Assembly (NCBI GenBank): GCA_026196105.1
Contig: JAPHRK010000002.1
Span: 76,566 to 140,565, forward strand
Origin: Rhodospirillales bacterium
GTDB lineage: Bacteria > Pseudomonadota > Alphaproteobacteria > Rhodospirillales > JAPHRK01
Direction: 5' to 3'
DNA length: 64,000 bases
The notes under the pieces are model-generated. The model worked only from the letters and a program-made list of their open reading frames with translations. It searched no databases and was not told the origin of the DNA. Made by a program: the position numbers and the translations under genes. Below are positions 34,907 through 37,825 of the stretch, piece after piece (position 1 is the stretch's first letter; every line of letters starts with the position of its first letter).

Positions 34907-35980
34907 ATGAACAGACGCCAATTTTTATGTAGCAGCACAGCTTTTTGTGCAACTGGAGTGCTTGGAATGACAGGGGCTTCAAGTGCAAGTACAGGGATAG
35001 TTGTGCCACCAGAAGAACATCAGCATGAATTGACTTTCATGCAGTGGCCCGTCAGCCGCCAAGTGTATCAGGAGAAAGAGTTTCTCAGTATTTTGCAACA
35101 GGCAATAGCTGATATAGCAAATACGATTGTTGAATTTGAACCCGTTGTGATGCTGGCAGCTAAACATCACCATAAAAAAATGCGTCTCCTGCTTTCTTCA
35201 AAGGTCGTCCTTTGGGATATTCCAACAGAGGATTTATGGTGCCGTGATTCTGGCCCTCTCTTCGCCAAAAGATCAAATGGAAAGCTGGTTGTTAGCCACA
35301 TTCAATTCAATGGGTGGGGTGATAAACAGATACATAAACATGACGGAAAAATCGCGACTGCAGTTGCCAACCATCTTGGCCTAGAGGTCATCTCAAGCGG
35401 CTTAAAAGGCGAACCTGGTGGTGTCGAACACGATGGTCACGGTCTGCTCATGGCTCATGAGAGTTCATGGGTAAATAAAAACAGAAACCCAGGCCTCACG
35501 CGTGATGAAATCGAAAAGAAATTGCTCAAAGCCTATGGCGCCAGCCAGATGATCTGGTCGCCAGGTGTCTGGGGTGAAGATATAACTGACTATCATATTG
35601 ATAGCCTAGCTCGATTCACGAGCCCGGGCCGCGTACTGATCAATCTGCCCGACCAACCAGACGAGCACGACCCGTTCCACCTTGCAGCGTTAGAAACGTA
35701 TGACCGATTTCTTGCGGCCAAACTTGATGTAGAGGTTATTCCTGAACCCACCATAAGGCGCGTGAAAGATATTGATTTCGTTACTTCATATGCGAATTAC
35801 TATGTTTGCAATGGCGGTGTGATTGCGGCTCAATTCGGCGACCCAGAGACTGATGCTATTGCCTACAAAGCACTACAGAAACACTACCCTGGTCGAGAAG
35901 TGGTAATGCTTAACGTTGATGCTCTAGGGGAAGTCGGTGGCGGCATCCACTGCGCCACACAACAGATGCCTTCAACATAA
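34907..35980 (+). CDS. Agmatine deiminase / Porphyromonas-type PAD family, Tat-exported
   Basis: The 357-residue guanidine-modifying hydrolase has all expected catalytic elements: LWCRDSGP near residue 110, GEPGGVEHDG, EDITDYHIDSLARF, and the nucleophile C349 in GGIHCATQQMP. Members turn agmatine into N-carbamoylputrescine or peptidyl-arginine into citrulline. Unlike typical cytoplasmic agmatine deiminases it starts with a twin-arginine signal (NRRQFL followed by a hydrophobic, Ala/Gly-rich stretch to SSAS). It follows putA by 25 bases and may be co-transcribed with it. An exported location makes the substrate uncertain. Confidence 0.85.
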   Translation: MNRRQFLCSSTAFCATGVLGMTGASSASTGIVVPPEEHQHELTFMQWPVSRQVYQEKEFLSILQQAIADIANTIVEFEPVVMLAAKHHHKKMRLLLSSKVVLWDIPTEDLWCRDSGPLFAKRSNGKLVVSHIQFNGWGDKQIHKHDGKIATAVANHLGLEVISSGLKGEPGGVEHDGHGLLMAHESSWVNKNRNPGLTRDEIEKKLLKAYGASQMIWSPGVWGEDITDYHIDSLARFTSPGRVLINLPDQPDEHDPFHLAALETYDRFLAAKLDVEVIPEPTIRRVKDIDFVTSYANYYVCNGGVIAAQFGDPETDAIAYKALQKHYPGREVVMLNVDALGEVGGGIHCATQQMPST

Positions 35981-36031: not shown

Positions 36032-37144
36032 CTAACCACTACGTTTGGAAAGTGTCTTGCTTTTATTTAGCTCTTTTTCCAAATGCCCCCATACCTTCGC
36101 TATGGTCTCATTCAGACTAACATTATCGCTATTTTCAACCACAACATCAAATTTATCTCTTAGCTCTCCAATGTCTTTTGACAAATAGTTTATATCTTCA
36201 ATAACTTGAGTCGTTCTTTTATTTTTCTGATCACTTTCCAAAGAGCGTTGGAGTATTCTCGCTTTTAGCGTATCTATATCTGCTAAAAGGAGTATAGAAA
36301 AAACCGTAAACCCTTTATTACTTGCCGAATGCTTAAAAATATCGACTTCTTCATAAAGCCTTTGACTCACAAAAAGGAGATCACGATATTTCAAGCCATC
36401 AAGAAAAGTTTGATCCACCCCATAATAATTCCCATAACTAAATCTGACACAACCTACTAATTTCTTTGATACTTTTTCTTTGAATTCATCCTCGTTCAAG
36501 TGAATAAATGGCTCCCCTTCCGACTCTGAAACTCTTTGAGGCCTAGTCGTGTACTTTCTCAACAATTCCGGAAAGAACCCCTGCTGCCTTGCCAATTCCA
36601 AAAGTCGGCCAAGTACAACATCTTTTCCAACCGAAGATGGACCTGATATTATAACACATATTTTGTTATACGTCTTAGGTTGAGTGTCTAAAAATGGTAA
36701 TTTTACTTGCTTTGGTGATACTCCTGTAATCCCGGAAATAAGGCTTCTAAAGCCATTGACTGATGCAACTCCAGGACGAAAATCGACGTAATGCATCCTG
36801 GATAAGAACGAAGGAAGGCTCTGAACCGTCTCTTCACTCGTTCCTGGGAGAAGAATTGGAATAACCCGCTTGGCGTTATCTCTAACTCGTTTTTCGAGAA
36901 AAACCCTCATTTCTTCATTGTGCCAAGGTCCAATACCGGAAGAGCTTATACAAACTCCGCAAGTTTTACTTTGACAAATTGCATCTTCCAATGCCTCTTG
37001 CCATGGTTCTCCTGGAATAAGGTGCCATTTATCTAAGTAGGGATTAATCATCACGGACTCTAAAGATGATGCTATTTCTTCTACAATCGATTTATCAGTA
37101 CTATTATGGCTTAGAAATACGTCAAACTGATCAAATTTTTTCAC
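36032..37144 (-). CDS. TIR domain fused to PhnN/guanylate-kinase-like domain
   Basis: The 370-residue protein begins with a bacterial TIR domain (about residues 5-140): DVFLSHNSTDK, LIPGEPWQEALEDAI, and the WHNEE motif (W74, E78) where the NADase glutamate of TIR enzymes lies. Residues 160-360 form a guanylate-kinase-superfamily domain: P-loop GPSSVGKD (168-175), TTRP (199-202), and GNYYGV (238-243), the nucleobase or phosphate acceptor region. The P-loop has Asp after the Lys, as in PhnN ribose 1,5-bisphosphokinase. GTG start with a GGAG site nine bases upstream. It is AT-rich, alone on its strand between putA-PAD and modABC, and looks acquired. A role in antiviral defence is inference; no partner gene is adjacent. 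Confidence 0.85.
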   Translation of the reverse strand: MKKFDQFDVFLSHNSTDKSIVEEIASSLESVMINPYLDKWHLIPGEPWQEALEDAICQSKTCGVCISSSGIGPWHNEEMRVFLEKRVRDNAKRVIPILLPGTSEETVQSLPSFLSRMHYVDFRPGVASVNGFRSLISGITGVSPKQVKLPFLDTQPKTYNKICVIISGPSSVGKDVVLGRLLELARQQGFFPELLRKYTTRPQRVSESEGEPFIHLNEDEFKEKVSKKLVGCVRFSYGNYYGVDQTFLDGLKYRDLLFVSQRLYEEVDIFKHSASNKGFTVFSILLLADIDTLKARILQRSLESDQKNKRTTQVIEDINYLSKDIGELRDKFDVVVENSDNVSLNETIAKVWGHLEKELNKSKTLSKRSG

Positions 37145-37825
37145 GTCTATAATCTCCGCACCTATCCAATGATGAGTAAGGATAACTATATCACACTCAA
37201 ACCACTGCTCTCTGCTATTAGCCGAATATTAGGGTAGAATCTATCGTATTCCAAGAAGGTTATTTCTATGTATAGACAATATTTTCCATATTATTATATA
37301 CATTATACATTCCAAAATTATTTCTACTTCAGTTACTGGTCAATCAAACCTCCGAAAACGCTCAATTGGAGTATTTGATCATTTTTCTGGACATTCTCGA
37401 TGAGCATGGCCTCTTAAAGAAAACCAAAGAGACACTCTGGATAATTTCCAACGACCTAAATTAAACGATCTTAAACTACCATATTAGCGGTAACCTATTG
37501 CAATATATGACTTCTATGGCATCACACCCTTCCCCAGTCCTATCTTCACTCTAAGCAACCTCAGCATTTAAAATTGGCTAGACATCTTCGGCACCACGAC
37601 GCATGGTTCTGGAGCTTTTCAAGCCTGAAAAGAGTGCTCGGGATGACCATAACGTAAGGAACATGTGTGAATATCCAGGTTTCTTGGGATAAAGCTAACT
37701 AAGATCACTGAGTTACGGTGACAGTTTACTTTATTCTAACTAACTCCACACATACACGCCATTTGCTTTTCACTCCCCCGCCCTTTATTCCTCTAAGGAT
37801 GATAATTTCTGAGGTATGATCACCC
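37145..37825. other. Gene-poor stretch with possible mobile-element remnant
   Basis: No convincing gene is present in these 681 bases. One frame, 37276-37464 on the plus strand, is open without a good start and ends in a plausible protein-like stretch (LDILDEHGLLKKTKETLW), so it may be a gene remnant. At 37711-37735 the sequence TTACGGTGACAGTTTACTT resembles the sequences that border IS200-like REP-associated transposases, from memory only. Long AT-rich stretches at 37270-37330 could hold the TIR gene promoter. Confidence 0.45.

Follow-up and report, generated by a model that had tools for sequence, protein, structure and literature searches.

A single gene in the 64,000-nucleotide stretch of Rhodospirillales DNA analysed here (contig JAPHRK010000002.1; hereafter, the window) encodes a protein in which an N-terminal TIR domain is fused to a C-terminal domain of the guanylate kinase fold. 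The catalytic motifs of both domains are intact, the base-recognition site of the kinase domain is altered, and both sites are kept in a distant homologue from Nitrosomonas sp. NEU_AOB_4. Tentatively, with a confidence somewhat short of even, we regard the product as a one-gene, horizontally moving abortive-infection immune protein, whose kinase-like domain binds a ligand, thereby releasing the TIR NADase. In agreement with the earlier note on this DNA, which knew of no system with such a pairing, we found no description of a fusion between TIR and guanylate kinase in the papers searched, most subscription papers being outside the coverage. TIR effectors as such are known; what is new is the candidate sensor joined to this one, which is of a kind unreported in the papers searched. 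The features discussed below are collected in Table 1.

Table 1. Features of the TIR-kinase gene and its product (positions in the window; residues in the protein).
Feature	Position	Strand	Remarks
GGAG, ribosome-binding-site-like	37154..37157	(-)	9 nt 5′ of the GTG; read from the sequence
TIR-kinase gene	36032..37144	(-)	370 aa; GTG start at 37144, stop at 36032
TIR domain, residues 7-140	36725..37126	(-)	Pfam TIR_2; fold Z 14.4 to TIR-1, 13.9 to SARM1
E78 codon, putative NADase catalytic glutamate	36911..36913	(-)	aligned with the W-x-x-x-E Glu of AbTIR and PdTIR
Linker, residues 141-160	36665..36724	(-)	lowest conservation in the protein; 35% identity to the homologue
Guanylate-kinase-fold domain, residues 161-365	36050..36664	(-)	Pfam, Foldseek, VIA-align Z 21.1 to 3tr0
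P-loop GPSSVGKD, residues 168-175, K174	36620..36643	(-)	
TTRPQR, residues 199-204	36533..36550	(-)	R201 and R204 = Gmk Arg38 and Arg41
GNYYG, residues 238-242	36419..36433	(-)	G231 just before = equivalent of Gmk Glu69
Lid segment with R296, R300, R310	36215..36259	(-)	

The reading frame, the motifs and the residue numbering given in the earlier note were all found to be correct (DVFLSHNSTDK, WHNEE with E78, GPSSVGKD with K174, TTRP and GNYYGV). In a Pfam profile search of the whole protein, both domains exceeded the curated cut-offs, TIR_2 over residues 9-125 (3e-23, 83.1 bits, cut-off 28) and Guanylate_kin over residues 164-243 (1.1e-8, 35.5 bits, cut-off 25.2), which confirms the proposed two-domain architecture. 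A whole-protein AlphaFold2 model obtained from a 38-row alignment reached a mean pLDDT of 79.8 (about 90 in the kinase part) and a pTM of 0.63, at which the mutual placement of the two domains is unreliable and the contact between them is not resolved.

A separate AlphaFold model of residues 1-150 (pLDDT 79, alignment of two rows) was matched to C. elegans TIR-1 with a Z of 14.4 and an rmsd of 3.2 over 132 residues, SARM1 and the SPARTA TIR tying with it as fold matches (Z 13.9 and 13.8, respectively). Sequence alignment places E78 at the W-x-x-x-E position of the NADase TIRs AbTIR and PdTIR, and this glutamate is invariant in the alignment of the TIR subfamily to which the domain belongs. The earlier assignment of E78 to the NADase position is thereby supported. 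The TIR domain is thus probably NAD-destroying, and the protein would cleave NAD+ via E78. The same genome bears a second, short TIR gene (L024, G000:C21:48913-49251; TIR_2 45.9 bits, open frame of 151 aa).

The model of residues 157-370 matched guanylate kinases, among them bacterial Gmk 3tr0 (Z 21.1, rmsd 2.2 over 192 residues), and the phosphate-site residues are present: K174 in the P-loop, R201, R204, and the lid arginines R296, R300 and R310. When the kinase domain alone was compared with NCBIfam, the guanylate kinase models scored 58.9 and 52.2 bits, above PhnN with 26.4 bits, all scores staying far below the equivalog cut-offs (Gmk TIGR03263, 52.2 vs. 160.45 bits; PhnN TIGR02322, 26.4 vs. 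156 bits). In a profile comparison, Gmk (99.0%) was again above PhnN (98.1%). In both fold and profile score, this domain is therefore nearer to Gmk than to PhnN. The two TIR-linked kinases came out as a single clade (100/99) in a phylogenetic tree, at the end of a long branch of uncertain position among the other kinases; their grouping with PhnN was weak, carried a long-branch warning and was not used.

The residues by which Gmk reads guanine were found to be replaced: G231 stands for Glu69, F213 for Tyr50, and VSQRLY for DxDWQG, all three substitutions being common to both TIR-kinase members. We take the roles and numbering of the Gmk residues (Glu69, Tyr50, Arg38, Arg41, DxDWQG) to be those of the yeast enzyme. 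Furthermore, K197 replaces the Gmk Ser preceding the TTR motif. Since PhnN, too, has a basic residue at that Ser position and no Glu69, the substrate site appears to lean to PhnN, whereas the fold, Arg41 and the loop length lean to Gmk. The mixed Gmk/PhnN character claimed earlier was thus upheld, with the GKD end of the P-loop and the missing Glu69 on the PhnN side and with the fold, Arg204 and the loop on the Gmk side. At the positions that bind the base, the residues either resemble those of PhnN or are new, which makes GMP unlikely as the ligand, the substrate preference being deduced from a few residues. A canonical Gmk is encoded separately in the same genome, so that no housekeeping duty is needed of the TIR-kinase.

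In the reading that we propose, the C-terminal domain takes up ATP together with a phosphorylated ligand. GMP is probably not this ligand; the candidates are an unusual, modified or phage-derived nucleotide, a nucleotide set free as the phage breaks down DNA, or a ribose phosphate. Closure of the domain on its ligand, or the ensuing oligomerisation, would release the N-terminal TIR, and the released TIR would cleave NAD+ through E78, thereby stopping the infected cell. The cleavage of NAD+, the sensing of a ligand, the gating of the TIR domain and the role in phage defence are what we infer here, and two published ideas make such a ligand reader plausible. It was proposed that DndF, a P-loop kinase with exchangeable N-terminal effectors, senses the nucleotides of phages (PMC10853773), and NAD depletion in Kongming is triggered by a nucleotide signal that a phage dNMP kinase helps to make (PMC12948488). 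A bolder version is possible but doubtful: a new class of one-protein immune sensors, in which a guanylate kinase fold adapted to a ligand other than GMP would detect a ribose phosphate or a nucleotide altered by the phage and would directly switch on the fused TIR NADase, the gene being moved between distant bacteria as a cassette. Sequence by itself cannot separate the sensor reading from its rivals.

With every phosphoryl-transfer residue kept and a substrate site leaning to that of PhnN, a ribose 1,5-bisphosphate kinase, the domain might instead be an active kinase with the product of the TIR domain, or a metabolite akin to it (an ADP-ribose or ribose-phosphate species), as its substrate, either making a signal or blocking NAD salvage. 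However, the same residues would be retained in a sensor, and neither copy has a partner effector gene beside it to read such a signal, so we consider an active kinase unlikely. Quite unlikely, too, is a decoy, where the kinase-like domain would serve as a protein-binding bait for phage proteins, such as partners or inhibitors of nucleotide kinases. It would then resemble the guanylate kinase domains of MAGUK proteins, which bind phosphoproteins and in which the same fold has turned into a binding module (PMC3335814). Viral contigs abound in diverse relatives of Gmk (374 candidate stretches gave 337 of them), and these match PHROG 1815, but a pure bait has no need of a P-loop and phosphate-site residues, and these are conserved in the TIR-kinase. 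Many of the viral-contig guanylate-kinase-like genes (L054-L133) were seen to lack the usual Gmk P-loop end.

The setting of the window copy is accessory, as the earlier note had suggested, and the gene is indeed AT-rich (GC 38%, GC3 32%, vs. GC 44% across the window). Its neighbours are an ABC operon of the molybdate type and an agmatine-deiminase-like gene (PAD_porph), with regulators and a PAS histidine kinase farther away. None of the ten neighbours tested matched PADLOC, so that no defence neighbourhood is supported in the window. Nor did the supposed mobile-element scar at 37145-37825 stand up: this 681-base gap upstream of the gene bears no element signature, that is, no notable repeat, second genome copy, plasmid match or notable ORF. 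No attC was found next to the ORF, the only match being at chance level and 7 kb distant, and the integrase matches in this genome stay under the integron cut-off. The PAD_porph gene (34907-35980), whose agmatine/peptidyl-arginine deiminase-like product starts with MNRRQFL, like a twin-arginine signal, is present in 3 of 60 related genomes at E 1e-40, the source genome counted.

Thoeris, the retron TIR and bSEFIR were considered for the window gene and rejected. With no PADLOC match in the ten neighbours, no ThsA/ThsB pair of Thoeris was seen, the ThsB match being weak and local. The retron TIR model (Retron_TIR_antiphage) gave 44 bits vs. 600, with a match covering the TIR domain only. A PADLOC match to bSEFIR (2.5e-8) spans the kinase, but in a true bSEFIR protein the C-terminal part is without a P-loop. 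One bSEFIR-like gene (L141/L148, G362:C5:307363-308834) consists of two open frames with stop codons between them and is possibly broken or a pair.

The surroundings of the Nitrosomonas copy (JAMXAG010000001.1; L025:691-1797), judging by the features of the region, resemble an array of integron cassettes and include candidate defence genes. The array (L052 3943-9065) holds a DUF4238 gene, a DUF3024 gene matching the PADLOC candidate PDC-S43 (3.1e-30) and uncharacterised small genes; the IS-like transposase pieces within it lie just 5′ of the TIR-kinase gene. It has no integrase nearby; an integron integrase (453 bits, cut-off 265) is encoded on a different contig of the genome. Since Rfam recognised only a tRNA in the region, attC sites were judged by motif and folding. 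An attC-like site follows the TIR-kinase stop codon by 8 nt (L052 7809-7876), its single-strand fold being not significant (z +0.97), and two stronger sites are located upstream (L052 4081-4191 and 5314-5380; fold z -6.7 and -3.9 vs. shuffles). The attC 5′ motif was derived from these same sites, so its absence in the shuffles is descriptive only. Integrons carry anti-phage genes (PMC12444791). The finding of a diverged copy among what seem to be shuttling cassettes in an unrelated bacterium led us to the reading of a rare one-gene immune protein, the link to defence resting on one array because only two members are known.

Toxins, like defence genes, are found in cassettes, and the TIR-kinase gene stands alone in the window with no defence neighbours; both facts would also suit a toxin-like or stress gene that answers the nucleotide state of the host (starvation, plasmid or cassette loss) and not the phage. 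We find this improbable, as no antitoxin gene was recognised beside either copy and most TIR effectors fused to a sensor act in immunity.

To estimate the distribution of the fusion, a DNA pattern linking the TIR motifs to a GPS-type P-loop was scanned over 84,980 species. The pattern was strict, in that it had its codon start after W48, a fixed spacing from W48 to W74 and a limit on the length of the linker, and therefore its single match, the 369-aa protein of the Nitrosomonas MAG, is a lower bound. The fusion thus extends beyond one strain, confinement to which, according to the earlier note, would have spoken against its reading. The two proteins are 50% identical over 357 aa, that is, at full length, with one alignment gap; identity amounts to 56% in the TIR domain, drops to 35% in the linker and is 48% in the kinase domain. 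Against these domain averages, the listed TIR positions are identical in 20 of 20 cases, and 20 of the 22 kinase-site positions, hand-picked from the Gmk alignment, are identical as well, which points to selection acting on the kinase site, the substituted positions included. No fused relatives were found in 20 order-mates, 385 class members and 398 phylum members (kinase-only query), nor in the plasmids, phages and viral contigs searched, and no further member appeared in 125 genomes of the family of the Nitrosomonas copy or in 399 of its order. In all, about 1,300 sampled genomes yielded no other TIR-guanylate-kinase fusion: what matched Gmk in relatives and in plasmids proved to be gmk or phnN genes of the ordinary, separate kind, and TIR matches elsewhere were TIR domains joined to other domains. 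The TIR-kinase is thus conserved and rare.

Such great rarity, with two members, could speak for a fusion that arose by chance or is decaying, without a joint function under selection, but this highly improbable explanation is strongly disfavoured: at 50% identity, the two proteins share one layout, are nearly equal in length and align with one gap, and conservation is concentrated at both active sites. On the sequence comparison, a chance origin of the ORF and of its domain pairing is excluded because a full-length, 50%-identical homologue with the same domain order exists in another lineage.

If the sensor reading is true, nucleotide-kinase folds join the sensors wired to TIR NADases, and a one-gene system becomes available where the ligand, the kinase site and the NAD output are directly testable. 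The Nitrosomonas protein agrees with the window copy in its domains, their order, length and active-site residues, but lies in a cassette-like array, unlike the window copy. With the NADase TIR effectors (SPARTA TIR-APAZ, Cat1, AbTIR, Thoeris ThsB, retron TIR), the TIR-kinase shares the TIR fold and the glutamate at the catalytic position, as well as the joining or pairing of TIR with a sensor; their sensors, however, are Argonaute/APAZ, CARF, reverse transcriptase and others, none having the guanylate kinase fold. Gmk is resembled in the fold (Z 21), P-loop, TTRxxR, GNYYG and lid arginines, whereas the guanine-reading Glu69, Tyr50 and DxDWQG are missing and the score is far under the equivalog cut-off. 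PhnN is resembled in the GKD end of the P-loop, the basic residue before TTR/ITR, the lack of Glu69 and the YGV/YGI segment, but the TIR-kinase has the Gmk-like Arg204 and a longer loop, lower PhnN profile scores and no adjoining phn genes.

Phage-encoded SLOG-guanylate kinase fusions likewise combine an NAD-related domain with a guanylate kinase domain, though with SLOG instead of TIR (PMC9503650). Kongming also leads from a nucleotide signal to NAD depletion, but by means of three host genes and a phage kinase, with no TIR-kinase fusion (PMC12948488). The likeness to DndF is one of concept, namely, a kinase-like nucleotide sensor with a fused N-terminal effector; DndF, however, has its own lid of about 200 residues (the entire kinase domain of the TIR-kinase comprises about 205), works with DndG and DndH, and does not include TIR among its listed fusions (PMC10853773). 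Should the proposed reading be true, the TIR-kinase would allow the published proposal of P-loop kinase domains, as in DndF, as sensors of phage nucleotides to be tested cleanly.
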